Below are positions 866 through 16,441 of a stretch of DNA of 64,000 nucleotides, in pieces (position 1 is the stretch's first letter; each line of letters begins with the position of its first letter). This DNA comes from a virus: IMG/VR virus record IMGVR_UViG_3300037189_002988, positions 16,722-80,721 of that record; one strand, written 5' to 3'. The translations under genes and the position numbers were made by a program. The notes under the pieces were generated by a model. That model did no database searches. It was given only the letters and a program-made list of their open reading frames with translations, and was not told the origin of the DNA.

Positions 866-1435
866 ATGGGATTAAATAAACTCAATCATCAATATGATTA
901 TGAATTAAACGTTCCTATATTATCATCAGGTAATAATTCAACTATTGTTAATAATACAATTGGTACTAATAATATATCTGGTGTAAGTAATATTTCTAGC
1001 CCCCCTGCAACTACAGCCTCAGCATCTTTTACAAATACAGTTGACATTACTGGAAGACTTGATGTATCTGAAATATCAGAAAGAATTACTGATGTAGTTG
1101 TAACCCCAAGTGGTCTTTGTTATACAAACTTTAATCTTTCTAGCATATTTTATTTATCAAATAGTCCAACATCAAATTTTGCAATGAATGTTGATAATGT
1201 TCCAACAACCAATTTAAAATCAAATGTAGCATCTTTAATAATTCCACAAGGTGCAACAGGCTACGGAGTTTCAACTTTTCAAATTAATGGAGTTACTCAA
1301 ACAATTAGATGGTTAGGTGGAACAGGACCAACTCCAACTAACGGTGCTGGAAGAATAGATATATATAACTTTACTATGATTAGAAGATCAAATTCTTGGA
1401 TAGTTATAGGTAACGCTAACCAAAATATTATTTAG
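866..1435 (+). CDS. Tail fibre module protein with a duplicated C-terminal beta domain
   Basis: 189 residues. A GGGGCGGG stretch lies just before the ATG, and the gene starts nine bases after its upstream neighbour. The first 90 residues are Asn/Ser/Thr-rich and low in complexity. The last 95 or so (NVPTTN, QTIRWLGGTGPTPT, SNSWIVIGN) match the C-terminal part of the protein at 8153-9085 closely enough to call them paralogs. Both copies are followed within about 10 bases by a glycine-rich adhesin gene, which suggests that this domain carries or docks the adhesin. No enzyme motif is visible. Assignment as a virion fibre component rests on composition and context. Confidence 0.65.
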   Translation: MGLNKLNHQYDYELNVPILSSGNNSTIVNNTIGTNNISGVSNISSPPATTASASFTNTVDITGRLDVSEISERITDVVVTPSGLCYTNFNLSSIFYLSNSPTSNFAMNVDNVPTTNLKSNVASLIIPQGATGYGVSTFQINGVTQTIRWLGGTGPTPTNGAGRIDIYNFTMIRRSNSWIVIGNANQNII

Positions 1436-1442
1436 GAGTTAT

Positions 1443-2195
1443 ATGCCAGCAACTAGTATATTATCTGGAAACTTTGGAGTAATTGGAAAAAGATCTGGTA
1501 GCGGTGGTGGATCTTTTAATGCATCTGGTGGAAATCAAACTATAGATAGTGGCGGATATAGAATTCATAAATTTACAGCAACTGGTTCATTTACTGCAGT
1601 TGGAACAAAGTCAATACAATGTTTTGTTTTGGCAGGTGGAGGACCAGGTTCTTTAGCAACAGGGTCAAATGGCGGTGGTGGAGGTGGTGCTGGAGGATTA
1701 ATTATTTCTTCTTTTAATAATGTAGGAACAAACGTATATACAATTACTGTTGGTGGTGCTGGTTCAAGTTCTTCAATTGATAGTATAAAAGTTGCACAAC
1801 CTGGTGGTGCTGGTGGAGCATTAAGTTCAAGCGGCACACCTGGACCATCTGGTGGCGGTGGAGGTGGATACGGAAGTGGTGCATTTGGTGGATACAATGA
1901 TGATCTTGATGCAGAAACATTTGGAAATGCAGGTGGAAATGGAAATTCTTCTGGTACACCATTAGGTGGTGGAGGAGGAGGTGCTGGTGGTCCTGGAGGA
2001 AATGCAAGTAGTTCGTTTGGTGGCTCTGGCGGATTAGCATACACATCATCATTTGATGGAACATCAAGAGAGTATGGTCGTGGTGGTGCTGGATTTAATG
2101 GATCAAATAGTGGAAATGCTGCTAACACTGGAAATGGTGGAACATATCTTAGTGCAGGCGGTAGTGGAATTGTAATGTTAAGATATGCAATTTAA
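1443..2195 (+). CDS. Glycine-rich adhesin-like tail tip protein, copy 1
   Basis: 250 residues. The N-terminal third holds a short beta region (YRIHKFTATGSF, residues 40-51) followed by long Gly-rich stretches with GGGGG and GGAGG runs. The protein ends in GGSGIVMLRYAI. The same plan, HKF/HTF motif then poly-Gly then SGIV-x-x-RY, recurs at 4054-4929, 9095-9874 and 13086-13832. Gly-rich domains of this kind occur in bacterial and phage surface proteins; in T-even phages, Gly-rich gp38 adhesins bind the receptor at the fibre tip. A host-recognition role is inferred from that analogy and from position. GGAG at 1436-1439 precedes the ATG. Confidence 0.7.
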   Translation: MPATSILSGNFGVIGKRSGSGGGSFNASGGNQTIDSGGYRIHKFTATGSFTAVGTKSIQCFVLAGGGPGSLATGSNGGGGGGAGGLIISSFNNVGTNVYTITVGGAGSSSSIDSIKVAQPGGAGGALSSSGTPGPSGGGGGGYGSGAFGGYNDDLDAETFGNAGGNGNSSGTPLGGGGGGAGGPGGNASSSFGGSGGLAYTSSFDGTSREYGRGGAGFNGSNSGNAANTGNGGTYLSAGGSGIVMLRYAI

Positions 2196-2208
2196 TAAAT
2201 TACTACAA

Positions 2209-2217
2209 TGCTATAAT
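2209..2217 (+). promoter_or_regulatory. Extended -10 promoter box (TGCTATAAT)
   Basis: TGCTATAAT lies in the gap between the first glycine-rich gene and the next fibre gene, 16 bases before the ATG at 2234. No convincing -35 element is seen. It belongs to a set of TGnTATAAT boxes at gene junctions in this genome. Confidence 0.5.
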
Positions 2218-2233
2218 TAAAAAGGTGAATTAA

Positions 2234-3718
2234 ATGACAAAACCAATGTATATTTGGGACGGATTATCTTGGCAACCAGCCGTTGATAATTTACTTGGAA
2301 CAACTGCAAAAGTTGTTTATCAAGCATCTGAGCCAGATATTGTAGAAATTGGTACTGTATGGGTAAATAGTGCTGCGTCTGCAGTTCCAGACTATACGGC
2401 CACAAGTGCAACTCAAATTGCATATAGCCCTTCAATTTATACTTCAGCAAGTGCAACTAATGTTCAATTAGGACTAGATTATTTAAGACTTAATCCTTTT
2501 GTTTACGTTACTTCTGTAACAAGACCAGGGTATCCAAATATTGGAATGGTTATATATGAAACAGATACTAAAAAAACATATATGTGGAATGGACTAAAGT
2601 GGGCAAATGTAAGTGATAGTGCTGCAATATATCAATCAGCAGACCCATCTATATCAGATCCATTTATAAACGTTGGAACGTTTTGGGTTGATTCAGACAA
2701 CGGTGTTTTAAAATATTTTAATGGTACATCTTTTGTTGAACCAGAATTTCTTGATTATTTAACATTATCTTCAGCATCGTCAACATACTTAACAAGATCT
2801 TCGGCATCGTCAACATACTTAACTCAATCTTCAGCATCCTCAACATATACCACCCCAGCACAAATAGCACAAGACTATTTATCTAAAGCCTCAGCATCAT
2901 CAACATACTTAACACAGTCTTCAGCGTCATCAACCTATCTAACTCAATTTGTTGCAAGCACTGATTACTTAACAATTGCAAACGCAACCAATAACTACCT
3001 TCCTAAAACTGCAAGCATGGCATTCACTAGGTGGAGAAAGACATATTCTGCTTCAGCAACTGCTATAACAGGCTCTGATGATAATCTATATAGTTTACAA
3101 TATAATCCAGGGTATGAACAAGTATTCATAAATGGAGTATTACTTGCTAATAATGAATATACTACTACTAACTCAAACTTAATTACTTTAAATCAACCAG
3201 TATTACCTAATGAAATTATAGATATATATGCATATCAAAATTCAACGAATGTTAATACATATACCCAGGGTCAAATAGACTCTAAATATAATGAGTATTC
3301 AAGATGGAGAAAAGCATTTTTATCAAGTGCTTCTGTAATTACAGGAATAGATGACCTTGGAAATACTTTAAACTATACCCCTGGATATGAACAAGTATAT
3401 TTAAATGGTATTTTATTAACTCCAATTATTGACTATACAAGACTAGCAAATACTGTTATAACATTGCCTACCTCAATAGTTTCTGGAGATATATTAGAAA
3501 TAGTTGGACTCAAACCATTTAATGTAGCAAGTCTTGATTTTGAGCCAAACATACCTTATGTATCAGCATCACCTACTTCTCCAGTACCTGGTACTTTATG
3601 GATTGACTCAACAACTATCACTTCACCCAAATTGAAAGTGTATAATGGAACTAAGTGGATCGCTGTCTCTGGTGGTGGAGGAGACTCTGGTTTCCATCCA
3701 TTCTTTGGAGCGTACTAA
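2234..3718 (+). CDS. Tail fibre protein with tandem peptide repeats and a duplicated domain
   Basis: 494 residues, ribosome site AAAGGTG. The N-terminal 165 residues contain short motifs repeated in other fibre genes here (YIWDGLSW, YMWNGLKW, KYFNGTSF), typical of small beta units that cap fibres. Residues about 178-240 are a repetitive stretch (SSASSTYLT units). Two consecutive copies of a roughly 90-residue domain follow, beginning RWRKTYSASA near residue 263 and RWRKAFLSSA near 355, each with GYEQV and NG-[IV]-LL motifs. The C-terminus again has YNGTKWIAV and then a Gly-rich tail. The next gene starts directly after its stop. A structural fibre role is likely; the binding target is unknown. 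Confidence 0.7.
   Translation: MTKPMYIWDGLSWQPAVDNLLGTTAKVVYQASEPDIVEIGTVWVNSAASAVPDYTATSATQIAYSPSIYTSASATNVQLGLDYLRLNPFVYVTSVTRPGYPNIGMVIYETDTKKTYMWNGLKWANVSDSAAIYQSADPSISDPFINVGTFWVDSDNGVLKYFNGTSFVEPEFLDYLTLSSASSTYLTRSSASSTYLTQSSASSTYTTPAQIAQDYLSKASASSTYLTQSSASSTYLTQFVASTDYLTIANATNNYLPKTASMAFTRWRKTYSASATAITGSDDNLYSLQYNPGYEQVFINGVLLANNEYTTTNSNLITLNQPVLPNEIIDIYAYQNSTNVNTYTQGQIDSKYNEYSRWRKAFLSSASVITGIDDLGNTLNYTPGYEQVYLNGILLTPIIDYTRLANTVITLPTSIVSGDILEIVGLKPFNVASLDFEPNIPYVSASPTSPVPGTLWIDSTTITSPKLKVYNGTKWIAVSGGGGDSGFHPFFGAY
2768..2950 (+). repeat. Tandem 30-base coding repeat in a fibre gene
   Basis: Five near-copies of a unit containing TCAGCATCGTCAACATA start near 2768, 2798, 2828, 2888 and 2918, with one interrupted position. 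They encode SSASSTYLT-type peptides, so this is a protein-coding repeat within the shaft region of the fibre gene. Confidence 0.8.
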
Positions 3719-4054
3719 ATGCCTAATGTTTATAAGTCACCAGCACAGGTAATACCTGTTGCAGAAACCTTAACAACTCTTTATTCTGTACCAGCAAGTA
3801 CTCAAACAGTTATATCAAATATACACGTTTGTAATCTTGGAACAACATCTGCATCAATAAGAATTGCAGTTAGACCACTTGGTGCACAGATTGCAAATCA
3901 ACACTACTTATTTTACGGACTAACAGTAACTGCTTATGATACTATTGAATTAGGTCATGGAATTACCATGGGTGCATCAGATGTATTATCAGTGCATGCA
4001 TCTAGTGGTAGTGTAAGTTTTACTTTATCATATGCCGAGGTGACTGCAGACTAA
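3719..4054 (+). CDS. Small beta-rich adhesin partner, copy 1
   Basis: 111 residues, starting immediately after the upstream stop and sharing one base (TAATG) with the downstream glycine-rich gene, so translation is probably coupled. It is clearly paralogous to the protein at 12757-13086: shared TTLYSVP/TTLYTVP, VCN, RIA-[VI]-RP, AN-x-HY and the closing DVLSVHAS-x-SVSF pattern. The alternating hydrophobic pattern predicts an all-beta fold. Because each copy lies directly before a glycine-rich adhesin, it may be a trimeric cap, chaperone or adaptor for that adhesin; this is inferred from linkage only. Confidence 0.65.
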   Translation: MPNVYKSPAQVIPVAETLTTLYSVPASTQTVISNIHVCNLGTTSASIRIAVRPLGAQIANQHYLFYGLTVTAYDTIELGHGITMGASDVLSVHASSGSVSFTLSYAEVTAD

Positions 4055-4929
4055 TGCCAATAAGTTCATTAAACTCAATTGCAAGAAATCCAAATGTTCA
4101 ATTATTAACTGCAAATGGAGGAAACTCATTTTCAGATATAGTTGTGGGGCAACAAACATTTAGAGTTCATACATTTTTATCATCATCAAATTTTACAATA
4201 ACTGCTGGACAAGGGGTTATTGAATATACTATTGTTGCTGGAGGTGGTGCTGGAGGTGGTGTTAATAACACAACTCCATCTGGCGGTGGAGGTGGTGCTG
4301 GAGGAATGTTGAGTGGTGTAACAAATATATTAGTTGCTGGAACTTATCCAGTTGTTGTTGGTTCAGGTGGACCAGCAAATAGTTATGTGGGAAACCCTGG
4401 AGGAAATTCAAGTTTTAACAACGTTACATGCTTTGGCGGTGGACAAGGTGGTGCTCATGGTGCAGATGGTGGATACCAAGGAGGATCTGGTGGAGGTGCT
4501 TCTCATTGGGGCCAAGGTGCTGCTGGTGTTGCTGGACAAGGATTTAGAGGTGGTAACGCTAATGCATCAAGTGGACATTTAGGTGGAGGCGGAGGCGGTG
4601 CTGGTGGTACTGGTGGAGACGCTAGCGGACAAGTTGCTGGAGCAGGCGGAAGTGGTGCTTCGACAACAATAACTGGAACTTCAATAACACACGCAGGTGG
4701 TGGTGGAGGTGGATCAGATAATCGTGGTTCATCAAATCAAGTAGGTGGTCCTGCAGGTTCAGGTGGTGGAGGAACTGGTGGAGGTGGTCCAAATAACTGG
4801 CAAGGTCAAGCAGCCCAAATAAATACTGGATCAGGCGGTGGCGGTGGTTCTGGTTGGACAAGTGGTGTTACAAGAACTGGTGGTAACGGCGGCAGTGGAA
4901 TAGTTTATATTCGCTATAGGATAGCCTAA
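4054..4929 (+). CDS. Glycine-rich adhesin-like tail tip protein, copy 2
   Basis: 291 residues, the longest of the four glycine-rich paralogs. It has the conserved N-terminal beta motif FRVHTFLSSSNF near residues 33-44, an AGGGAGGG start to the Gly-rich body, several asparagine, histidine and tryptophan residues interspersed between Gly runs (positions where receptor specificity could vary), and the family ending GGSGIVYIRYRIA. No signal peptide or catalytic motif. It is coupled to the preceding small beta protein by TAATG. Function as receptor-binding tip is inferred from the Gly-rich fold class and location. Confidence 0.7.
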   Translation: MPISSLNSIARNPNVQLLTANGGNSFSDIVVGQQTFRVHTFLSSSNFTITAGQGVIEYTIVAGGGAGGGVNNTTPSGGGGGAGGMLSGVTNILVAGTYPVVVGSGGPANSYVGNPGGNSSFNNVTCFGGGQGGAHGADGGYQGGSGGGASHWGQGAAGVAGQGFRGGNANASSGHLGGGGGGAGGTGGDASGQVAGAGGSGASTTITGTSITHAGGGGGGSDNRGSSNQVGGPAGSGGGGTGGGGPNNWQGQAAQINTGSGGGGGSGWTSGVTRTGGNGGSGIVYIRYRIA

Positions 4930-4930
4930 A

Positions 4931-5977
4931 ATGGGTAGAGCAAGAGATATTGCTAGTTTATTCACAACAAGTAGTGCATTAGCAACAGATAGTGAAGTTG
5001 CTTCTTTATATACCCCGCTATCTTCTCCAGTAACATCATATAAAAATAAATTAATTAATGGAGAATTTGATATTTGGCAAAGAGGAACTACCTTTAGTGC
5101 TGGTGGCTATACTGCAGATAGATGGCTTCTACAGGTAAACGGATCAGGTGCAACAAGGTCAGTATCTCAACAAACACTTACTCCAGGCTCTATAACTGGA
5201 TATGAATCAGCATTCTTTTTAAGATATAATCAGTCAGTTGCTGGTACTAGTGCTACGTTTAATATTATCGACCAAAGAATTGAAGATGTTAGAACTCTTG
5301 CAGGTCAAACTGTAACAGTATCATTTTGGGCTAAAGCAGATTCAACAAGAACTATCACCTCATCTATTCAACAAGTATTTGGAACTGGTGGGTCATCAGA
5401 AGTTGCTGGATTAGCAAGTGGTAACATAAACATTACAACATCTTGGACTAGATATTCTTATACTGGAACTTTATCAAGTATATCTGGAAAAACAATTGGT
5501 ACAGATAGTTATGCAGCATTTAGAATTAATTTTCCAATAAATGCTACATTTACCGTAGATATTTGGGGGGTACAAGTAGAAAATGGATCTATTGCTACTG
5601 AATTTGAACAAAGATTTATAGGTGATGAATTAAGAATGTGTCAAAGATATTATGAAAAATCTTATGCATTAACAACAAATCCAGGAACAATAAATGTTGG
5701 AATTACTGTAAATGGATTTAGCACATCTTCTGCTCAAAAGTGCATATTTCCTGGTCCTTGGAAAGTTCAAAAAAGAACAACTCCGTCAAACGTAATAGTA
5801 TATGACGAAGCAGGTAACTCAAATAGAATATCAACTTTAGATGCTGGCGGAACTGCTACAAACAATGTTGCTGTTGCAATTAGTATTTTTGATGATTCTT
5901 GTTTTCGTGCTTTAGGTTCAAATAATGGAACACAAGCAGGATATAAATATTCTTGGACCGCTGATGCAGAATTATAA
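4931..5977 (+). CDS. Tail fibre protein with carbohydrate-binding-like domain
   Basis: 348 residues, starting two bases after the previous stop. Residues 1-30 (ARDIASLFTT, ATDSEVAS) form a short anchoring segment also found in the next gene. From residue 38 the sequence NKLINGEFDIWQRG, then ADRWLL, FWAKA near 130 and VDIWGVQVE near 215 match the pattern of carbohydrate-binding jelly-roll domains common in phage and bacterial fibre proteins. The ELRMCQRYYEKS motif near 235 marks the start of a C-terminal domain frequently paired with this fold. A glycan-binding fibre is the best reading; the actual sugar is unknown. Confidence 0.7.
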   Translation: MGRARDIASLFTTSSALATDSEVASLYTPLSSPVTSYKNKLINGEFDIWQRGTTFSAGGYTADRWLLQVNGSGATRSVSQQTLTPGSITGYESAFFLRYNQSVAGTSATFNIIDQRIEDVRTLAGQTVTVSFWAKADSTRTITSSIQQVFGTGGSSEVAGLASGNINITTSWTRYSYTGTLSSISGKTIGTDSYAAFRINFPINATFTVDIWGVQVENGSIATEFEQRFIGDELRMCQRYYEKSYALTTNPGTINVGITVNGFSTSSAQKCIFPGPWKVQKRTTPSNVIVYDEAGNSNRISTLDAGGTATNNVAVAISIFDDSCFRALGSNNGTQAGYKYSWTADAEL

Positions 5978-5997
5978 AATGGAGGGTATAGAATAAT

Positions 5998-6522
5998 ATG
6001 GGTATAACAAGAGAAATGTCAAAGATCTTATCAACAAGTACTGCTATTACCACAGATGCAGAAATATCTGCATATAACTATTTATCACAAACATCTGCTA
6101 GTACAACATACGCTACAATTTCTAACTTTCCATCAAGTGCCTGGACATCTTTTAATCCTCAATTAGACCAGGGTACAACAAATATTAGTAAAACTATCAA
6201 CTATTGTAAATATATTAAGTTAGGTAAAACTGTTATTGCAAATGGATATATTGCAGTCACTGCAAATGGAACTGCAGGAGCAAACGTTACTTTAACCCTT
6301 CCATTACTAGCAGCAAGTGCTGGTCAGCCAATTGGTAGTTTTATAATTTATGGATCAAGTGGCAACGTAAACTTTGCTGGAACAGCCTGGGCTTTAACAA
6401 CAAGCCAAATGGCATTTAGATCAGATGCCTCTAACTTTGAATCATATTTTGGAAATCAACCAAATAGGGCTATAGTAAACATAGACTCAATTGCTTTTTC
6501 AATTGCCTATGAAGTGGCTTAA
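5998..6522 (+). CDS. Small tail fibre protein sharing an anchor with its upstream neighbour
   Basis: 174 residues. GGAGGG at 5981-5986 lies 11 bases before the ATG. The first 30 residues (MGITREMSKILSTSTAITTD) repeat the N-terminal pattern of the gene at 4931-5977, so both proteins probably attach to the same place on the tail. The rest is a beta-rich domain (YIKLGKTVIANGYIAVT, then VTLTLPLLAAS) like those seen in small C-terminal fibre domains. No enzymatic motif. Likely an alternative or additional fibre arm; the pairing argument is inference from the shared N-terminus. Confidence 0.6.
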   Translation: MGITREMSKILSTSTAITTDAEISAYNYLSQTSASTTYATISNFPSSAWTSFNPQLDQGTTNISKTINYCKYIKLGKTVIANGYIAVTANGTAGANVTLTLPLLAASAGQPIGSFIIYGSSGNVNFAGTAWALTTSQMAFRSDASNFESYFGNQPNRAIVNIDSIAFSIAYEVA

Positions 6523-6552
6523 TAGGATATAATATAACGAGGAGGTAGTAAA

Positions 6553-6921
6553 ATGGCACATTTTGCAGAATTAAATGAAGATAATATTGTTCAAAGAGTA
6601 ATTGTTGTTAATAATGAAGACTGTCTAGACGCTAATGGCGTTGAGTCAGAAGAAGTTGGTTCAGCATTTTGTCACAATTTATTAGGTGGCACCTGGAAAC
6701 AAACATCATATAGTGGTAGTTTTAGAAAAAACTATGCTGGTAATGGATATAAATATGATGCTGAAAAAGATGCTTTTATTTCACCAAAACCATTTAGTAA
6801 GTGGATTCTTAATGAAGATACTTGTCAGTGGGAACCACCAGTAGCATATCCAGATGATGATAAGTTTTATGTATGGAATGATAACAAAGGAGTATGGGAA
6901 GAGTCTGATCTTTCTAACTAA
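6553..6921 (+). CDS. Small fibre-associated protein (MAHFAEL type), copy 1
   Basis: 122 residues with a strong ribosome site (GAGGAGG). It belongs to a small-protein type often found next to tail fibres in T4-like cyanophages and other aquatic phages: N-terminal MAHFAEL and QRVIVVNNEDC, central GTWKQTSY and NYAGNGYKYD, then SKWILNEDTCQWEPP and a WNDNKGVWEE end. A shorter relative lies at 13832-14149. Its function is not settled in general; an accessory fibre subunit or assembly factor fits the location. A TATAAT at 6528-6533 lies before it but lacks the TG extension. Confidence 0.6.
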   Translation: MAHFAELNEDNIVQRVIVVNNEDCLDANGVESEEVGSAFCHNLLGGTWKQTSYSGSFRKNYAGNGYKYDAEKDAFISPKPFSKWILNEDTCQWEPPVAYPDDDKFYVWNDNKGVWEESDLSN

Positions 6922-7178
6922 TGCCTAACATATCAGCAAATTCTAGACCAGCACAAGTTTGGAATGGAACCGAATGGGTTCCAATTGCTGGCGTTCAACC
7001 AAACTATGAATTTGGTGCAGCAGATCCAACACATGCTGCAAAAGAAGGAACCGTCTACTTTAAATTAAGCGGGGAATTAAATGAAGTAGTAGGTTTATAT
7101 GTAGTTATTAATGGAACTTGGATAGAATTTAAGTCAGTATTTAATTTACAGAATGTAACATGGGGCGACCTTGCTTGA
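6921..7178 (+). CDS. Short tail-fibre-region protein of unknown role
   Basis: 85 residues, ATG overlapping the upstream stop by one base (TAATG). The sequence contains QVWNGTEWVPI near the N-terminus, the same short WNG-x-x-W unit found in the fibre proteins at 2234 and 12112, and a second TVYFKLSG, VVINGTWIEF repeat-like segment. It therefore looks like a free-standing copy of a small fibre cap domain. No other motif is recognisable. Confidence 0.5.
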   Translation: MPNISANSRPAQVWNGTEWVPIAGVQPNYEFGAADPTHAAKEGTVYFKLSGELNEVVGLYVVINGTWIEFKSVFNLQNVTWGDLA

Positions 7179-7181
7179 CAA

Positions 7182-7190
7182 TGATATAAT
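7182..7190 (+). promoter_or_regulatory. Extended -10 promoter box (TGATATAAT)
   Basis: TGATATAAT lies 16 bases before the ATG at 7207. A TTGACA at 7174-7179 is only five bases upstream of the hexamer, too close to act as its -35 element, so the box would work as an extended -10. Confidence 0.45.
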
Positions 7191-7206
7191 AAAAAGGGTG
7201 ATATAA

Positions 7207-7557
7207 ATGGCATTTCCAGCAACATATAATTTCAATTACTACCGTGGTGATAGTTACGAGTTCGTTATTTATCCAAAGAATGCTAATGGAACTGCATTTG
7301 ATTTATCATCTTACAATTCTAATTTATTTACAGTAGCAACAGATAGAGGTACTGGTGCAACTCTAGTAGGAACTGGTACAGTAACAAAGTCTGGCTCTAC
7401 AGCACTAATATGTAAAATAACTCCAACACTTGGAGATTTAATGTCTTTAGCAACATATGTTTATGATGTTCAAATTAATAATACAACAGCGTCAACTAAG
7501 TACACACTACTAACAGGAAACATCAGCGTAACACAAGACGTATCTGGCAGGGTATAA
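7207..7557 (+). CDS. LtfC/BppU-like N-terminal fibre attachment protein
   Basis: 116 residues; ribosome site AAGGGTGA. The sequence starts with NYYRGDSYEF, has FDLSSYNSNLF in the middle and ends with YVYDVQINN, YTLLTGNISVTQDVS. This order (RGD-x-x-x-F, DLS, YDVQ, LLTG-x-x-x-V-x-x-D) is the pattern of the small beta-sandwich domain at the N-terminus of lactococcal-type baseplate upper proteins and of LtfC-like proteins of actinophages, which bind fibres to the tail tip. It is encoded as a separate short protein and the next gene follows without a gap. Structural role fairly likely. Confidence 0.6.
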   Translation: MAFPATYNFNYYRGDSYEFVIYPKNANGTAFDLSSYNSNLFTVATDRGTGATLVGTGTVTKSGSTALICKITPTLGDLMSLATYVYDVQINNTTASTKYTLLTGNISVTQDVSGRV

Positions 7558-8133
7558 ATGGCAATTAACTCAGTAGTTCAAACTGATTCAATCACAGTGT
7601 TTGGTCCACCAGCAGCAATTGATGTTGCTTTAGACATTGGCCCATCTGGAGAAAGAGGAAGTTTAATATATTCTGGATCTGGTGATCCAAACATTAATAC
7701 AGGTGCATTTGTTAACGAAAGTCCAAAAGTAAGCGACCTATATGTTAGAACAGACGCTGGTGGAGACTATGGTGTTGTATACCAATATAATACAGTTCCT
7801 GGCGGTAATGAATGGCAATCAGTATTAAAGTTTCAGCCAATATTATTTAGTAAAATAGAAACATTAAATTTTGCTTCAGGTAGTGCAAGTGTTTCTATAC
7901 CACTAAGTGAAATTTATCAAGATGCACCAGCATCATTATTGGCAGAAAATATTTCAATTCAACTTACACCACAACACTCTGAGGCTATCGCACACTCAAT
8001 TTCAGCAAAGGCTTTAAGTGTATCTGGAACAAGGGCACTACTATTTACAGTCAAGGCAAAACAAATAGCGGGTAGTATAACTGATTTATCAGGCAATATA
8101 GCCTTTAACATATCTATTACTATCGTGTTATAA
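7558..8133 (+). CDS. Minor tail protein with LDIGPSGERGS motif
   Basis: 191 residues, starting directly after the upstream stop. Residues 22-36 contain ALDIGPSGERGS, a short collagen-like turn often seen after the N-terminal segment of minor tail proteins of actinophages. SDLYVRTD and VVYQYN resemble fibre cap units, and the C-terminal half (residues 90-190) is a beta-rich domain ending in FNISITIVL. Together with the LtfC-like gene before it, it probably forms the base of a fibre. Its stop codon overlaps a TGTTATAAT box. Confidence 0.55.
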   Translation: MAINSVVQTDSITVFGPPAAIDVALDIGPSGERGSLIYSGSGDPNINTGAFVNESPKVSDLYVRTDAGGDYGVVYQYNTVPGGNEWQSVLKFQPILFSKIETLNFASGSASVSIPLSEIYQDAPASLLAENISIQLTPQHSEAIAHSISAKALSVSGTRALLFTVKAKQIAGSITDLSGNIAFNISITIVL

Positions 8134-8134
8134 T
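8126..8134 (+). promoter_or_regulatory. Extended -10 promoter box (TGTTATAAT)
   Basis: TGTTATAAT spans the stop codon of the preceding gene and lies 18 bases before the ATG at 8153. No clear -35 element is seen. Confidence 0.45.
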
Positions 8135-8152
8135 TTAAGAAGGTGAAGCAAA

Positions 8153-9085
8153 ATGGCAGGTCAATTTTTAAGTGATGCATCTGGATACGGTGCTACAGAA
8201 TTTGATACAAAGATTCCCTCACTAAACGATCAAGCAAATATCGTAGAGGCTTTTAAACTTTATCACTATGGACTAGATAACTATACAGGTGCAGAAGCAC
8301 CAGCAGCAGACAGCATCCACGCTCATTTATCAGACTTTAACACAAGACTAGAATTACAAGAAAGCACACCATCTGGCGGTGGAGTTGTTCAAACAGCAAT
8401 TCCTCATTTACTAGTTAGAGCAGATAATACAACAACTATTCTTCCAGAAGGATACATCTGGGTTGATCAAGATGGAACAGTTCCAAGTGTTACAGCCGCT
8501 GGAGTTGTATCATACTTAAATGATGAACCATCACCAGCAACACATGGTCAAGTTTGGATTGACAAAGACTACAATATTGCACCAGTAAATATTTCAGCAT
8601 ATGCACCTACTGCAAATCCTACTTTTACAGGAACAGTAATTGCTCCAACACTAAACTCAACAACTTTAACAGCAACAACAGCAAACTTAACAAACTTAAC
8701 AGTTACTGGAGCAGCAAACATTGCTGAAGTTACAGAAACTGTAAACACCTTGTCATTTGTATCTGGCTCAGTAACTGGAAATTATAATGATAGTGCAATT
8801 TTTTACACATCATCAGGAACAATTGCAAACTTTGGAGTAATTCTTACAAACATTCCAACAACAAATAATAGAGTAACAACAATGTCATTTATGATAACTC
8901 AAGCATCAACTGGATATATTCCAAATGCAATAAGTGTTAACGGATCAAATCAAACAATTAGATGGGTTGGTGGAACCGCTCCAACTCCAACAAGTTCTGT
9001 AGGGAAAATTGATATCTTCATATTTTCACTTTTAAGAATATCCGATTCTTGGATAGTTCTTGGAAGTTCTAATTTAAATATTTAA
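8153..9085 (+). CDS. Tail fibre module protein with a duplicated C-terminal beta domain, longer copy
   Basis: 310 residues, ribosome site GAAGGTGA. Residues 1-70 (AGQFLSDASGYG, LNDQANIVEAFKLYHYG) are a segment found at the N-terminus of many phage fibre proteins. Residues 95-145 hold ILPEGYIWVDQDGTV and QVWIDKDYNI repeats. Residues 150-200 are a Thr/Ala/Asn-rich shaft, and the final 95 residues pair with those of the gene at 866-1435 (IPTTNN, QTIRWVGGTAPTPT, SDSWIVLGS). Followed nine bases later by a glycine-rich adhesin, as in the other copy. Interpreted as a full-length fibre of which 866-1435 is a short paralog. Confidence 0.65.
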   Translation: MAGQFLSDASGYGATEFDTKIPSLNDQANIVEAFKLYHYGLDNYTGAEAPAADSIHAHLSDFNTRLELQESTPSGGGVVQTAIPHLLVRADNTTTILPEGYIWVDQDGTVPSVTAAGVVSYLNDEPSPATHGQVWIDKDYNIAPVNISAYAPTANPTFTGTVIAPTLNSTTLTATTANLTNLTVTGAANIAEVTETVNTLSFVSGSVTGNYNDSAIFYTSSGTIANFGVILTNIPTTNNRVTTMSFMITQASTGYIPNAISVNGSNQTIRWVGGTAPTPTSSVGKIDIFIFSLLRISDSWIVLGSSNLNI

Positions 9086-9094
9086 GGAAAACCT

Positions 9095-9874
9095 ATGCCA
9101 ATATTATCATCATTCAGTGGCTCTAGGGGCGTAACAGGAAGACAACAACAAAGTCCATTTACCGCAACTGGTGGAACAATGACAGAAGCCACTATTAGTG
9201 GAACAATATATAAAGTTCATACATTTACAACTAGCGGAATTTTTCAAGTTTTAAGCGGTAAATCAGATATTAGTTATTTAGTAATTGCAGGTGGTGGATC
9301 AGGTGGTGGTCCAAATACTAACTTTGGTGGATCAGGTGGTGGTGGAGGTGCTGGAGGTTTACTACAAGGATCAGCATCTAATATAACACCTGCTTCATAT
9401 ACAGTTACAGTTGGAAATGGTGGAACATCAGTACCAAGTTCTGGAGGTATATCATCTATTTCTGGAATTGTAAGTACAGTTGGTGGAGGTCATGGTGGTA
9501 GAGGAGACGGTGTTTATAGCGGAACTACTGGTGGATCTGGTGGAGGTGCTGGACGAGGAACTGGTGCAGGAAGTGGTACTTCTGGACAAGGACATGCTGG
9601 AGGTGCTGCTCAATATTTAAGTTGGGGTGCTGGTTCAGGTGGAGGTGCTGGAGGTGCTGGTATTCAAGGTGGAGGAGATCTTTCTTCTCAACCAGGTGGA
9701 GCAAGTGTTACTATAAACTTTAATGGAACTTCAACAGAATATGCTAGAGGTGGTGCTGGAGGATCAAGAGACAGTGGAGGTACTACATACCTTGGTGAAA
9801 ATACTGGTGCAGGTGGCGGTGGCGGTGCTGCTGGAAGATCTGGTATTGTTATGATAAGATATGTTAAACCATAA
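9095..9874 (+). CDS. Glycine-rich adhesin-like tail tip protein, copy 3
   Basis: 259 residues, ribosome site AGGAAAA. It has the paralog signature: YKVHTFTTSGIF near residues 38-49, LVIAGGGSGGG at the start of the Gly-rich body, many GGGAGG tracts, EYARGG near residue 214 (matching EYGRGG of copy 1), and the terminal GRSGIVMIRY. Copies 1 and 3 share more of these features than copies 2 and 4, matching the fact that both follow the same type of partner gene. Receptor-binding role inferred. Confidence 0.7.
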   Translation: MPILSSFSGSRGVTGRQQQSPFTATGGTMTEATISGTIYKVHTFTTSGIFQVLSGKSDISYLVIAGGGSGGGPNTNFGGSGGGGGAGGLLQGSASNITPASYTVTVGNGGTSVPSSGGISSISGIVSTVGGGHGGRGDGVYSGTTGGSGGGAGRGTGAGSGTSGQGHAGGAAQYLSWGAGSGGGAGGAGIQGGGDLSSQPGGASVTINFNGTSTEYARGGAGGSRDSGGTTYLGENTGAGGGGGAAGRSGIVMIRYVKP

Positions 9875-9882
9875 GGAAAAAT

Positions 9883-10131
9883 ATGAATTATAAATTTAAA
9901 CCACTAAGCCCTATTGCAGAAAATAGTGGGGTTGTAAAAAAGGTAGATCTTGGAACTCATTATTCAACCTTTATAAGTCCATTTGATTTTGAAGTAGATG
10001 AATCTAATGATATGTATGTATGTGGAAAAGAATATAGCATTAATGAATCAAAAGCCGAAGAACTATTCTTATCTGGATATGGACATTTTTTAGACCCAGC
10101 ATTTATTCAAGATATTGAAGAAGAAGTTTAA
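9883..10131 (+). CDS. Hypothetical small acidic protein
   Basis: 82 residues, AAGGAAAA just before the ATG. The C-terminus is strongly acidic (IQDIEEEV). I do not recognise the family. It contains YVCGKEYSINESKAEELFLSGYGHFLDP, which looks like a compact alpha/beta domain. The stop codon overlaps the stop of the minus-strand carbamoyltransferase by four bases, so the two genes converge with no room for a terminator between them. Position suggests the last gene of a fibre operon. Confidence 0.5.
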   Translation: MNYKFKPLSPIAENSGVVKKVDLGTHYSTFISPFDFEVDESNDMYVCGKEYSINESKAEELFLSGYGHFLDPAFIQDIEEEV

Positions 10132-11678
10132 AACAATAATCCTTTTTTAGGAAACCAAATAGCATCTAATGCTGTAGATCTTAATACATTAATAGCCTCT
10201 TCTGGAGTTTCAACTAATGGCATTCCTGCTGTATTAAAACTAGTATTTAATAATATTCCTATACCAGTATTTTTCTTAAACTCTTTTAATAGTTCGTAGA
10301 TATGTCCTGAGTTAACTGTTTGAATTCTAGAAGTATTATCAACATGAACAACAGATGGAATCATAGAAGATACCCCATCTTTACATTTATAAGCAACAGT
10401 CATATATTCATTCTTAGTATCACTATTTGTATGAAAGTATTCTTGAAAATCTTCTTCTAGCATTACTGCACCAAATGGTCTATACCATTCTCTATTCTTT
10501 ATTTTGTTTACAATATCTTTACCATCTTTGTTTCTTGGGTCAAATAGTATTGATCTATTTCCTAATGCTCTAGGTCCAGCCTCGGATTTACCATTAAAGA
10601 CACCAATAGTTTTTTGATCTAGTAAAATTTTAACAATATCAGCATATAAGGCGTTTACTGTATTAATATCTAGGTCATAGTCAAATCCTTGAAAAAAGGT
10701 ATCTTTTAGGGGATATATAGACTTGTCTAAGGTCATATCCCTATAAACATTCATTGCAGCACCAATACTATTTCCACTATCGTCAGCAATTGGTTCAAAA
10801 TAAAAATTAATACCCTCACAATTTTCAAGGTAGTAATTATTTGCTATTACATTTAAACCATACCCACCAGTAATACATACATTGTTAATACCAGTTTCTT
10901 TGGTAAATTTTTTTATAAGTTTTAGTACCTGCTCTTGTGTTTGCTTTTGGACTTGATGTGCATAATCGGCATAAGGTTGATAGTTTTCTTTTGTAACACC
11001 GTCTACTCTAATGTTTTTATTCTTCTTTAGTATAGATACGCTTGTATCAAATCTATCCATAAGTAAACCTTCAAAAAGATGATTTTTAACTTTGCCATCT
11101 TCATAAAAGAAATCATCTGACTTGGATGAGTTTCCGTATGACGACAGTCCCATAGTTTTTCCATTCTCTAAAGGATGTTGACCAATAAGGGTAGTGGCTG
11201 ATTCATATACCTTTACAATTCCTAAACCATTATTATCCCAATATCTTTTATGCAGCGTCTTAAATACGCTAGGATATTCTGCTACTAAAACAGTTTCACA
11301 TTCATGACCTTTATTATTAACATAAGATCCATTTCTATCAACTATGATTACAAGACTTTTTTCAAACCCACTATTATAAAATGCCAAAGAAGCGTGTTGC
11401 TGATGGTGCATATGAGAAAGACTTAATATATCTTTTGAATACATTTTTGAAAGGTATGTAGATAGATAACTATCATAGTTATTATAGAATGGATTAGCAA
11501 CTACTATATGGTCTATAGAATTCTTATATCTATCTTTTACTATATCTAAAGATTTCCAGGGATACATGTCCCTTTTTACACCAGTAAATCTTTCTTCTTT
11601 ATAAAATTCTTTTACTTTGCCATTTTCTACAAGTGCAACTGAACTATCGTGCATAGAACTTACACCTAAAATTATCAT
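10128..11678 (-). CDS. Carbamoyltransferase of the NodU/CmcH/TobZ family
   Basis: 516 residues, close to the usual size of the family. Enzymes of this family transfer a carbamoyl group from carbamoyl phosphate through a carbamoyl-adenylate to a hydroxyl of a sugar or similar acceptor. Visible motifs: N-terminal ILGVSSMHDSS (residues 3-13), the metal-binding HHQQH at 91-95, ITGGYGLN and the YFEPIADDSG region in the centre, and the signature GPRALGNRSILFDPR near residues 366-380, followed by YRPFGA and the C-terminal LNTSFN. Both domains are complete. It is expressed from its own minus-strand promoter, alone among plus-strand fibre genes. Likely substrate: a glycan of the virion or host envelope; DNA base carbamoylation is possible but no base-modifying partner is visible in the window. 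Confidence 0.88.
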   Translation of the reverse strand: MIILGVSSMHDSSVALVENGKVKEFYKEERFTGVKRDMYPWKSLDIVKDRYKNSIDHIVVANPFYNNYDSYLSTYLSKMYSKDILSLSHMHHQQHASLAFYNSGFEKSLVIIVDRNGSYVNNKGHECETVLVAEYPSVFKTLHKRYWDNNGLGIVKVYESATTLIGQHPLENGKTMGLSSYGNSSKSDDFFYEDGKVKNHLFEGLLMDRFDTSVSILKKNKNIRVDGVTKENYQPYADYAHQVQKQTQEQVLKLIKKFTKETGINNVCITGGYGLNVIANNYYLENCEGINFYFEPIADDSGNSIGAAMNVYRDMTLDKSIYPLKDTFFQGFDYDLDINTVNALYADIVKILLDQKTIGVFNGKSEAGPRALGNRSILFDPRNKDGKDIVNKIKNREWYRPFGAVMLEEDFQEYFHTNSDTKNEYMTVAYKCKDGVSSMIPSVVHVDNTSRIQTVNSGHIYELLKEFKKNTGIGILLNTSFNTAGMPLVETPEEAINVLRSTALDAIWFPKKGLLF

Positions 11679-11684
11679 TTGACA

Positions 11685-11713
11685 AGTATATCAACTAAGG
11701 CTTATTTAATCAA
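11685..11713 (-). promoter_or_regulatory. Minus-strand promoter of the carbamoyltransferase gene
   Basis: Read on the minus strand: TTGATT (11708-11713), a 17-base spacer, then TATACT (11685-11690) with an upstream TGA giving an extended -10. Only six bases separate the -10 from the ATG at 11678, so transcription would start at or next to the start codon, giving a leaderless message. The same TTGATT-17-TATACT pair precedes the minus-strand transglycosylase gene. Confidence 0.65.
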
Positions 11714-11725
11714 TAGTGCATCTAC

Positions 11726-11755
11726 TTGACACCACTTGGATAATAGGTGTATAAT
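11726..11755 (+). promoter_or_regulatory. Strong plus-strand promoter of the putative holin gene
   Basis: TTGACA (11726-11731), 18-base spacer, TATAAT (11750-11755). It diverges from the carbamoyltransferase promoter in the same intergenic space. The ATG at 11785 follows after 29 bases with AGGAGG in between. Confidence 0.75.
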
Positions 11756-11784
11756 TTTACCTATGTTCTAAAAGGAGGACATTA

Positions 11785-12030
11785 ATGGAATCAGTACTAA
11801 ATAAGAAGGTTCTTAGTTCAGCATTGAACGCCTTCGTAATCGCACTAGTAACACAATTTGTTGATTCAGGAGCAGATGTATCTGCTCTTACAGGTGATGC
11901 TCTAGGCACCATCTTGAATTCAGCAGTTGCTGCAGCAGCATGGGTTGTAATCCGTGCAGTTAATCCAAAAGATACTAAGTTTGGTATCGGTGCAGTAGCA
12001 GATAAGGTTGCTGCAAAGAAAAAGAAATAA
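11785..12030 (+). CDS. Putative holin (two-helix small membrane protein)
   Basis: 81 residues with an ideal ribosome site (AAAGGAGG). Two hydrophobic segments are visible, about residues 9-26 (VLSSALNAFVIALVTQF) and 41-58 (GTILNSAVAAAAWVVIRA), separated by a short acidic loop, then NPKDTKFG and a lysine-rich tail ending KKKK. This size, topology and charged tail fit small holins such as the r1t-like type of Gram-positive phages. The gene stands alone between a consensus promoter and a strong terminator, suggesting independent, high-level timing control. No endolysin is adjacent; lysozyme-like and M23 genes lie elsewhere in the window. Other small membrane proteins cannot be excluded. Confidence 0.5.
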   Translation: MESVLNKKVLSSALNAFVIALVTQFVDSGADVSALTGDALGTILNSAVAAAAWVVIRAVNPKDTKFGIGAVADKVAAKKKK

Positions 12031-12045
12031 GCATTTAAAAACATT

Positions 12046-12076
12046 GGGGGTTGCTTAAAAGGCAGCCCCCTTTTTT
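12046..12076 (+). terminator. Rho-independent terminator after the putative holin gene
   Basis: GGGGGTTGC pairs with GCAGCCCCC across a seven-base loop, followed directly by TTTTTT (12071-12076). This is the clearest intrinsic terminator in the window. Confidence 0.85.
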
Positions 12077-12077
12077 A

Positions 12078-12086
12078 TGTTATAAT
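12078..12086 (+). promoter_or_regulatory. Extended -10 promoter box (TGTTATAAT)
   Basis: TGTTATAAT begins two bases after the terminator T-run and restarts transcription into the fibre genes; the ATG at 12112 follows after 25 bases with GGAGGG between. Confidence 0.6.
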
Positions 12087-12111
12087 TAAAAACATGGAGG
12101 GCTTATAAAAT

Positions 12112-12756
12112 ATGCCTTTAAGATTAGTCACAAATAAAGCACTTACAGACAATGTAGCAACACTCACTACATCAGCAAGTCATAGCCTATCAGCAGGCAC
12201 ATACATTACAATTAGTGGTGTAGATTCAACATTTAATGGATCCTATACAGTAACAGGAACTCCAACAACAACAAGTTTTACTTATGCAAAGACAGCAACA
12301 AATGTTCCTTCAGCAGTTGTGTCACCATCAGGTAGTGCAATTTATGCAACTATAGATGATACAGGAAGACCAGCATATATGTACGATGCTGGAACAGATA
12401 CTTGGTTTGCAGTTGCAGGAAAAGTAGATACTGGAAGAAATTATACTTGGACAGGAACACATACATTTTCTGCACCAGTTTCAGCATCAGACACATTTAC
12501 TGTCAATGCTCAACTTAGATCAACTTCAGCAAGTGTTTCTGGAGCCTTAACAGTCTCTGGAGATGTTGTTGCTAAAAAAGGTATAAATGCTTTTGCTAAT
12601 ACAACTGCAAGAGACGCAGCAATTCCTTCTCCAACTGTTGGTACAATAGTATATATCACTGCATTAAACCAACAACTAGTGTGGAATGGCACAGCCTGGA
12701 TAGCAATTGAAGGCGGCAGTGGCATGGAAGACATATTTTTAATGATGGGGGCATAA
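12112..12756 (+). CDS. Tail fibre protein preceding the fourth adhesin module
   Basis: 214 residues. The first 60 residues (LTTSASHSLSAGTYITISG, FNGSYTVTG) form a small beta unit like the one visible at the left edge of the window. YMYDAGTDTWFAVAG near residue 85 is a fibre cap motif. The centre is a Thr/Ser/Ala-rich shaft (FTVNAQLRSTSASVSG), and residues 160-200 (NTTARDAAIPSPTVGTIVYI, LVWNGTAWIAI) are a unit common at phage fibre ends. It begins the module whose later members are 12757, 13086 and 13832; the next gene follows without a gap. Structural fibre role is likely. Confidence 0.6.
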   Translation: MPLRLVTNKALTDNVATLTTSASHSLSAGTYITISGVDSTFNGSYTVTGTPTTTSFTYAKTATNVPSAVVSPSGSAIYATIDDTGRPAYMYDAGTDTWFAVAGKVDTGRNYTWTGTHTFSAPVSASDTFTVNAQLRSTSASVSGALTVSGDVVAKKGINAFANTTARDAAIPSPTVGTIVYITALNQQLVWNGTAWIAIEGGSGMEDIFLMMGA

Positions 12757-13086
12757 ATGGCTAGAAGTTATAAAGTCCTAGGACAAAATAATCCTGCTGC
12801 AACAACAGCAACAACTTTGTACACAGTACCAGGAGCAACACAATCTGTACTATCAACAATATCAGTTTGTAATTTTGCAAATACTGCTGCTACATATCGT
12901 ATTGCAATTAGACCTGCTGGCGAAACATTGGCAAACAAACACTATGTTGCATACGATTCATCACTACCAGCAAACGATACTGCAGTATTAACATTAGGAT
13001 TAACAATGAATACAACAGATATTCTTACAGTATACGCATCAACAGCATCTGTATCATTTGGAGTATTTGGTTCGGAGATTTCCTAA
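12757..13086 (+). CDS. Small beta-rich adhesin partner, copy 2
   Basis: 109 residues, paralog of 3719-4054: TTLYTVPGATQSV against TTLYSVPASTQTV, SVCN, YRIAIRPAGE, ANKHYVAYD, and DILTVYASTASVSFGV at the end. It begins right after the stop of the fibre gene and shares one base (TAATG) with the glycine-rich gene downstream, the same arrangement as in copy 1. The conservation of both sequence and order suggests that the protein acts with the adhesin, for example as trimerisation base or folding partner; that is inference. Confidence 0.65.
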   Translation: MARSYKVLGQNNPAATTATTLYTVPGATQSVLSTISVCNFANTAATYRIAIRPAGETLANKHYVAYDSSLPANDTAVLTLGLTMNTTDILTVYASTASVSFGVFGSEIS

Positions 13087-13832
13087 TGGCAATATCAACA
13101 GTTGCAAATACATTACTAAGTAATAATGCAAAATCTAATAGAAGTAATAAATTTGCAAAAGTAACCGCTAGTGGAGGTACTGAAACTACTGGTGGTGGAT
13201 ATAAGGTTCATACATTTACTAGTAGTTCTACTTTTAACGTAACAGTTGGTGGACCAGTGGAAGTTTTTGCAATTGGTGGAGGTGCAGGTGGTGGACACGG
13301 ACAGTGTGGTACAGGTGGTGGAGCAGGCGGTGTTCAGTTTGTTGCAAATCAACAGTTTATATCAAACTCCTCTTACACAGTAACAATTGGAAATTTTGGT
13401 GGTACAAATAGTGGTGGTGGAAACACAACAATTGTTGGAACAAATGTTTCTATCACGGCAGGTGGTGGAGGTATTCCTACAACTGGAACTCCAGATAACT
13501 TTACAAACTCTGGTTCACAAGGACACGCTGGTGGTGCAGGTGCTGGTGGAAATACAGCAAGTTTAAGTGGTGGTCCTGGAAGACTTTATTTAGGAAATCA
13601 TTATGGTGGTGGCGGTGGAGCAGGTGGAAGAGATGAAGGTGGATGTGAAGGTTTTGCTAGAGCAGGTGGTACTGGTGGCGGAGGTACAGGAATTAATGGT
13701 GATGGAACTGGTGGAAGTGCTAGTGGTCACGGATCAGGTGGCGGCGGTGGCGGTAGAGTAAATCATCAAAATAGAAATACTCCAGGTGGAAATGGATCTT
13801 CTGGAATTGTAATTTTGAGGTATTTAATATAA
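13086..13832 (+). CDS. Glycine-rich adhesin-like tail tip protein, copy 4
   Basis: 248 residues. Family marks: YKVHTFTSSSTF near residues 39-50, EVFAIGGGAGGGHG, extensive GGGG tracts with interspersed His, Asn and Arg, and the end GSSGIVILRYLI. Unlike the other copies it has two cysteines in the Gly-rich part (GQCGTGGG near residue 76 and GGCEGF near 191). TAATG overlaps tie it to genes on both sides. Receptor recognition is inferred as for the other copies. Confidence 0.7.
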   Translation: MAISTVANTLLSNNAKSNRSNKFAKVTASGGTETTGGGYKVHTFTSSSTFNVTVGGPVEVFAIGGGAGGGHGQCGTGGGAGGVQFVANQQFISNSSYTVTIGNFGGTNSGGGNTTIVGTNVSITAGGGGIPTTGTPDNFTNSGSQGHAGGAGAGGNTASLSGGPGRLYLGNHYGGGGGAGGRDEGGCEGFARAGGTGGGGTGINGDGTGGSASGHGSGGGGGGRVNHQNRNTPGGNGSSGIVILRYLI

Positions 13833-14149
13833 TGGCTAACTTTGCAGTAATTGATTCAGAAAATATGGTTGTAAATATCGTAGCATCAGACTATGATTTT
13901 ATAGAAATTTTAAAACAACAAAACCCAGATCTTAAATATATTGAATATCATGATAATAATCATGCAACTCCTGGGTACCCATATAATCCAGAAAAAGAAA
14001 AGTTTTTATTACCACCATCATATTATTCATGGGTATTAAATGAAGAAAAATGGGAATACGAAGCACCAATTCCAATGCCAAATGATGGTAAATACTACAG
14101 TTGGGACGAAACACAAGTTACTTGGGTTGAAGTAACCCCAGTGGTATAA
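13832..14149 (+). CDS. Small fibre-associated protein (MANFAVI type), copy 2
   Basis: 105 residues, relative of the protein at 6553-6921. Shared features are the MANFAVID start, an early VVNIVA segment, YPYNPEKEKFLLPP, SWVLNEEKWEYEAPIPMPNDGKYYSWDE and a TWVEV end; the central GTWKQTSY part of copy 1 is missing. The start overlaps the end of the glycine-rich gene (TAATG), placing it last in that module. Probably an accessory fibre or assembly protein. Confidence 0.6.
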   Translation: MANFAVIDSENMVVNIVASDYDFIEILKQQNPDLKYIEYHDNNHATPGYPYNPEKEKFLLPPSYYSWVLNEEKWEYEAPIPMPNDGKYYSWDETQVTWVEVTPVV

Positions 14150-14165: not shown

Positions 14166-14369
14166 ATGGCAACAATAAATGATAGCATAGGGAAATTAGC
14201 AAGAGTTTACGACTCTGCAACTGACACTTGGGTTCCTCTAATTGGTGCACCAGCACCACACACACATGATTTATCCAGTTTAGGATTAGTAATTATAACT
14301 AACCCACAAAATGGTCAAGTATTAAAATATAGTTCAAGTGCAAGTGCTTGGACTAATCAAAATCCATAA
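14166..14369 (+). CDS. Small tail-fibre-region protein
   Basis: 67 residues; ribosome site AAAGGAG. YDSATDTWVPLIG near the N-terminus and QNGQVLKYSSSASAWTNQ at the C-terminus are both of the type found at the end of phage fibre proteins, where a short V-L-x-Y-x-x-x-x-x-x-W unit is common. PHTHDLSSLG in the middle resembles histidine-containing trimeric fibre turns. It may be a separately encoded fibre tip or a remnant of a longer fibre gene. Confidence 0.45.
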   Translation: MATINDSIGKLARVYDSATDTWVPLIGAPAPHTHDLSSLGLVIITNPQNGQVLKYSSSASAWTNQNP

Positions 14370-14398
14370 TTGACATAAAGTCATTACCCTGATATAAT
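14370..14398 (+). promoter_or_regulatory. Consensus promoter of the glycosyltransferase gene
   Basis: TTGACA (14370-14375), exactly 17 bases, then TATAAT (14393-14398), with TGA before the -10, so all consensus elements including the extended -10 are present. The ATG at 14423 follows after 24 bases. This is the best promoter match seen in the window. Confidence 0.85.
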
Positions 14399-16398: not shown

Positions 16399-16441
16399 AC
16401 TATTATCCCATAAAATCAAAAACTAGGAGTTGTATTTATTT

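Follow-up and report, generated by a model that had tools for sequence, protein, structure and literature searches.

Separately encoded, glycine-rich tips are known from the tail fibres of the T-even phages T2, S16 and PP01, in which the tip gene gp38 directly follows the fibre gene gp37 and its product alternates conserved glycine motifs with hypervariable segments. The N-terminal part of gp38 determines compatibility with its own gp37 (PMC12892980; PMC12529663). In the cyanophage Pam3, the fibre gp24 (PDB 7ypx, 7yfw) has a TNF-like beta-sandwich domain, after which comes a glycine-rich lattice whose distal tip is variable. Its glycine-rich domain consists of a conserved glycine stem that ends in a hypervariable tip, for which host binding has been proposed; the tip is fused in one chain to the baseplate-docking helices of gp24, which is folded with the chaperone gp25 (PMC9608196). 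A glycine-rich protein is also part of the siphovirus tail tip of mycobacteriophage Bxb1 (PDB 9d93, chain Q). Here, an array of glycine-rich tip genes is described from a 64,000-nucleotide stretch of viral DNA (the window), which comprises bases 16722-80721 of the IMG/VR record IMGVR_UViG_3300037189_002988 (record length 80,721 bases). The window is thus a fragment, and the 16.7 kb that precede its start are referred to as locus L033 (window coordinate = L033 coordinate minus 16721).

The window probably carries part of a system in which a tailed phage encodes eight receptor-binding tips, arranged as socket, plug and exchangeable tip. Each glycine-rich protein would be a separately encoded distal tip, the short N-terminal plug of which (about 12-30 residues) would fit a matching socket on the protein encoded directly upstream. 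Two socket types would be in use. Type B, a fibre with a terminal QTIRW domain, would serve copies 1 and 3; type A, a small beta-sandwich connector with a TTLY motif, would serve copies 2 and 4 as well as the foremost of the three copies that lie in tandem upstream of the window. The tip body would be a beta-sandwich whose glycine-rich strands stack into a rigid lattice, and the variable segments separating the glycine islands would be the likely contact surface. Socket and plug would stay fixed and tips would be swapped with other phages, at times for an unrelated fold such as Laminin_G_3. By exchange of the body under a kept socket and plug, the contact surface could change and assembly remain undisturbed.

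By analogy, the array may work like gp37/gp38 of the T-even phages, in which the N-terminus of gp38 binds the fibre trimer. In both, a separate tip gene immediately follows the gene of its fibre (or, here, connector), and conserved segments alternate with variable ones (in copy-2-type tips, the glycine islands are 82% identical versus 41% elsewhere). Unlike gp38, the tips here occur several times in a genome and are paired with two unrelated types of socket, which also bear non-glycine tips, and the array does not appear to belong to that family by sequence or fold. A sequence match to the gp38 family was not obtained, PF21722 being the only family reported at E-values up to 1, and the S16 gp38 fold (6F45; beta-helix plus polyglycine II sandwich) was not among the 50 best Foldseek matches listed for copy 2. 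The order of a beta-sandwich domain, glycine-rich lattice and variable distal tip is shared with Pam3 gp24. In contrast to gp24, the tip here has its own gene and a short plug, and the copy 2 model contains no helix and so no baseplate-docking helical domain. The Bxb1 protein has a similar predicted fold but, unlike the tips as proposed here, forms part of a siphovirus tail tip.

The four glycine-rich open reading frames (ORFs) of the window are located at 1443-2195 (copy 1, 250 residues), 4054-4929 (copy 2, 291 residues), 9095-9874 (copy 3, 259 residues) and 13086-13832 (copy 4, 248 residues); these and all other array genes of the window given below are on the plus strand. Their entry motifs are YRIHKF, FRVHTF, YKVHTF and YKVHTF, and they end in SGIVMLRY, SGIVYIRY, SGIVMIRY and SGIVILRY respectively. 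Pairwise alignment scores of the copies exceeded those of composition-preserving shuffles (z = 7.1 to 17.9), therefore the similarity goes beyond a common glycine content. All four copies match PF21722 (Gly_rich_2) at 34.4, 78.0, 49.3 and 41.1 bits, against a curated cut-off of 24.3, and the tips match PHROG 2295. The four paralogs with HKF/HTF entry and SGIV-RY end recognized in the initial annotation are therefore well founded. Candidate plugs lie at approximately 1443-1493 (MPATSILSGNFGVIGKR), 4054-4089, 9095-9175 and 13086-13175 in copies 1-4, and the variable tip of copy 2 spans approximately 4264-4893.

When the modules were aligned at the protein and DNA levels, the partner genes also fell into two families. 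The type-B fibres before copies 1 and 3, at 866-1435 (189 residues) and 8153-9085 (310 residues), scored z = 31.5 over shuffles, and a DNA repeat of 146 nucleotides at 71% identity connects their QTIRW domains (approximately 1106-1432 and 8756-9082). The common C-terminal domain noted in the initial annotation was thus recovered, with clear paralogy restricted to the last 109 residues or so. The small type-A connectors before copies 2 and 4, at 3719-4054 (111 residues, TTLYSVP) and 12757-13086 (109 residues, TTLYTVP), both match PHROG 1276 and are paralogs, as had been noted (z = 36.0). Cross-type partner pairs gave z = 0.7 and 0.1, that is, the two types are unrelated. The modules follow one another in the order B, A, B, A with other genes interspersed. 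The modules are hence duplicated, as first described, but not in head-to-tail tandem within the 13 kb.

Similarly, the four-copy array of the initial annotation is present in the window but is an incomplete set, as the full record contains eight PF21722 matches, four of them upstream in L033. These are the glycine-rich C-terminus of a 1077-residue fibre (L033 5698-8931) and three consecutive glycine-rich genes (L033 10214-11236, 11237-12262 and 12262-13263), the first of which follows a type-A connector domain (L033 9645-10214). Eight matches were also found in the closest relative, six in a 24-kb fragment and seven and eight in two other records; three records contained none, although such zero counts are weak because records may be fragments.

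A scan of viral contigs for type-A connectors yielded at least 483 matching connector-encoding stretches; a profile built from all 14 connectors was too diverse for scanning, and a narrower set was used. The proteins encoded downstream of 90 usable connectors were glycine-rich in 68 cases and of other kinds in 22. Over these 90 pairs, connectors resembling one another tended to be followed by proteins alike in their first 16 residues (rank Mantel r = 0.25, p = 0.001), whereas tip similarity showed no such relation to the connector (r = -0.07, p = 0.77). Among the 68 glycine-rich pairs, the corresponding values were 0.35 (p = 0.001) for the plug and 0.05 (p = 0.30) for the tip. The tip class differed in 29 of 123 connector pairs of more than 0.85 similarity, most clearly between L170 and L176 (similarity of connector 1.00, plug 0.93, tip 0.03). 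That the connector tracks the plug and not the tip supports, at the level of sequence, the arrangement of a socket, a plug and an interchangeable tip. Also, a one-base stop/start overlap with the next gene (TAATG or TAGTG) was present in 78 of 112 connectors, compared with 18% of neighbouring ORF pairs in these loci, and TAATG joins connector and tip 2 in the window; such an overlap would fit coupled translation. One natural fusion was found, L179 ORF 2262-3986, in which connector and glycine-rich region form a single chain.

Syntenic contigs were collected in two scans with neighbouring genes, to which a third scan added 80, and were compared gene by gene. In three of them, 3300044630_001132 (loci L006, L032 and L034), 3300042691_002288 (L023 and L035) and 3300042691_011198 (L013), most of the array is common at 72-99% identity, with the following exceptions. 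The slot of copy 1 is occupied in L032 and L023 by a 235-residue Laminin_G_3 protein (PF13385, E = 3.5e-17 and 1.2e-16), which stands behind type-B partners 75-79% identical to that of the window. The starts of these proteins, MPGLTTFGGNRGIYGK and MPTLTTLGGNNSVYSK, resemble that of copy 1, MPATSILSGNFGVIGK, in the pattern MPxLTTxGGNxxxYxK. In L032 and L013, a fifth module, made up of a type-B domain and a glycine-rich tip, is located after copy 4. At this place, the window has a 67-residue ORF (14166-14369) that has the N-terminal handle in common with the L013 partner but goes no further; the short form also occurs in L031, a more distant relative, and both gain and loss of the module fit. 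L034 lacks the tail fibre at 4931-5977, which in L035 is 50% identical. Several connector-tip pairs, differently arranged, are carried by the more distant contigs L025, L026 and L030.

The tips of copies 2 and 5 have diverged within sharp limits to about half identity, between flanks that are conserved. Residues 1-27 of copy 5 are identical between L032 and L013 (100% amino acid, 95% nucleotide identity), whereas the tip is 49% identical in amino acids and 55% in nucleotides, with 63 gap columns, and the proportion of synonymous differences (pS) climbs at the boundary from 0.08-0.24 to 0.54. Copy 2 is 75-83% identical to its relatives in the first 12 residues and 53% in the tip, and the preceding fibre is 84-95% identical. 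In contrast, copy 3 (85-87%), copy 4 (72-74%) and the three tandem upstream copies were held in place across relatives at 72-96% identity overall. Turnover is thus uneven: certain slots change and others stay. The ratio of nonsynonymous to synonymous substitution rates (dN/dS) was below 1 across most regions of the copies, therefore the genes look functional. The array was proposed in the initial annotation to be expandable; that it is so, and that its modules are exchanged between relatives, is supported by the replacement of copy 1, the presence or absence of module 5, the diverged tips of copies 2 and 5 and the range of 0-8 PF21722 matches per record; a single order and sequence common to all relatives was not found in the related contigs.

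The divergence of copy 2 bears on the alternative that most tip variation arises in place, through point mutations and small insertions under diversifying selection, and not through whole-tip exchange. The pS of the copy 2 tip (0.59) barely exceeds the 0.55 of its partner, while the proportion of nonsynonymous differences (pN) goes from 0.15 to 0.36, as in-place variation would have it. Exchange would account for the whole-domain replacement of copy 1, the variable occurrence of module 5 and the rise in pS at the boundary within copy 5, and in-place variation as the main process is considered unlikely.

The predicted folds bear on a second alternative, that the glycine-rich proteins are diverged tail decorations or assembly factors which have been duplicated, are drifting and play no part in receptor choice. 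The AlphaFold2 monomer of copy 2 (predicted local distance difference test, pLDDT, 86.6; predicted template modelling score, pTM, 0.87) is predicted to be a beta-sandwich carrying stacked glycine loops. Residues 1-14 are disordered in the model, as expected for a plug modelled apart from its socket. The best solved matches in Foldseek were the Bxb1 tail tip (E = 5.9e-5, template modelling (TM) score 0.42-0.51) and the Pam3 fibre (E = 6.5e-5, TM-score 0.40-0.46, a distant match), followed by the ALK glycine-rich domain. Among predicted viral structures, many matches are named glycine-rich domain proteins, and the Pam3 fibre was the sole match of the tip profile among PDB sequences (E = 0.09). 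The type-A connector was modelled as a beta-sandwich (pLDDT 89.1); its fold matches to solved structures were weak, none falling under E = 0.001, and no solved relative of either partner was found by sequence search. A tblastn search of copy 3 against cultured phages, with the low-complexity filter on, gave no match. The earlier suggestion that the glycine-rich proteins form exposed tips agrees with the copy 2 model, in so far as its predicted fold resembles solved phage fibre and tail-tip proteins. Duplicated decorations could account for the good conservation of copies 3, 4 and the three tandem upstream copies, as for structural parts, and composition-biased sequence is prone to drift; moreover, the receptor role of the tips is itself one that we infer. 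Exchange of contact domains is a better explanation than drift for the lectin-type replacement of copy 1 and for the sharp boundaries of divergence in copies 2 and 5, and the fold resembles phage host-contact proteins, which leaves the decoration hypothesis improbable.

The initial annotation suggested that the array could recombine to change host range. Reassortment of tips by homologous recombination between copies within a single phage genome could use the shared entry and exit motifs and the repeated glycine codons as crossover points, but it is very improbable and was rejected, as no long or near-identical repeats exist between copies (the best are short and about 60-83% identical), copies 3, 4 and those upstream keep their positions across relatives, and neither long inverted repeats nor an RVT_1 or Resolvase match was found. 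The data are better explained by exchange with other phages than by shuffling of the array's own copies. Two dedicated mechanisms were likewise rejected: a diversity-generating retroelement, as the 80.7-kb record (which may be incomplete) has no RVT_1 reverse transcriptase, and an invertase-driven fibre switch, as there was no match to the Resolvase family of serine recombinases and no strong inverted repeat.

Several points weigh against the scheme of socket, plug and exchangeable tip. The Mantel tests take related contigs as independent, hence their p-values are optimistic, and the plug correlation is modest. The plug homology of copy 1 rests on two short motifs, which are weak grounds. A tip tree with a single type-B clade was not rejected (approximately unbiased test, p-AU = 0.17). 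The TM-scores of copy 2 to solved structures are low (0.40-0.42 by query). The structure models are of monomers, and we infer the contact of plug and socket, as well as presence in the virion, receptor binding and an effect on host range. The tip tree gave a weak hint (branch support 90/50) that tip 5 derives from a type-A tip which moved onto a type-B socket; given the same p-AU, neither this nor any other transfer of glycine-rich tips between the two socket types in this phage group is claimed here.

The PHROG 1276 connector, which has no assigned function, is newly proposed here as a tip socket. A broader proposal is put forward more tentatively, with somewhat less than an even chance of being correct: PHROG 1276 may be a general tip socket in aquatic phages, to which unrelated receptor-binding domains attach through the short N-terminal plug of the translationally coupled next gene, and phages such as this one would display several socket types and up to eight different tips at once. 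Most environmental phages have no annotation for their receptor-binding proteins. Should the socket-and-plug rule be correct, host-contact proteins of any fold could be predicted in hundreds of uncultured phages from their position directly behind a PHROG 1276 connector or a QTIRW fibre. The array would also be a natural set for asking how fast host contact changes by tip exchange and why one phage should carry eight tips.

Other genes of the array lie between and beside the modules. A 494-residue fibre-like protein (2234-3718), with weak PHROG tail-fibre matches, precedes the connector of copy 2, and a 214-residue protein (12112-12756), also with a weak tail-fibre PHROG match, precedes that of copy 4. 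The tail fibre at 4931-5977 (PHROG 4492) has the N-terminal handle MGRARDIxx, which bears glycine-rich tips in related contigs; a fibre-like protein with a similar handle follows at 5998-6522 (82% identity in L034, 35% in L035). Two paralogous PHROG 7759 proteins are encoded at 6553-6921 and 13832-14149; the former is a possible assembly protein, and the latter gene overlaps the end of tip 4. In L032 (16560-16900), the handle of the module 5 partner contains an in-frame stop, which may be an assembly error or a broken gene. Modules 3 and 4 are separated by a carbamoyltransferase gene (PF16861, PF02543) on the minus strand at 10128-11678, 92-95% conserved in relatives, and a terminator-like hairpin of 11 pairs plus a T run (12046-12070) lies directly upstream of module 4.

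The source is read by us as a mosaic aquatic phage. The G+C content is 33-37%, the portal is 54% identical to those of Streptomyces phages of the Francob/Gilson type, and a 1002-residue virion protein adjoining the array has 45% identity with cyanomyovirus structural proteins. An adenosylcobalamin-dependent ribonucleotide reductase match (TIGR02505) is present at 16430-18382 with an E-value of 1.3e-94, though under the cut-off. Two perfect sigma-70-type consensus matches (TTGACA, 17-18 nucleotides, TATAAT) were found at 14370-14398 and 11726-11755, although in the overall scan such sites were no more numerous than in shuffles. The former stands directly before a glycosyltransferase gene, and a similar sequence is found in L013, L032 and L031. 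In distant relatives, cysteine- and tryptophan-rich proteins of about 270-300 residues precede the glycosyltransferase gene (L018 4045-4860, L019 4019-4909 and L031 12463-13293). A tail-region protein of L025 (8526-9425) has a C-terminal part which, read from its residues (CIDSQTLISV ... LVHNK), resembles a Hint or intein-type domain. A flavin-dependent halogenase-like gene, with weak NCBIfam matches, was detected at L033 1154-2752, L026 5966-7615, L030 6370-8019 and L031 4581-6224; it lies beside or within the tip arrays in varying place and strand, as if moving with the modules.

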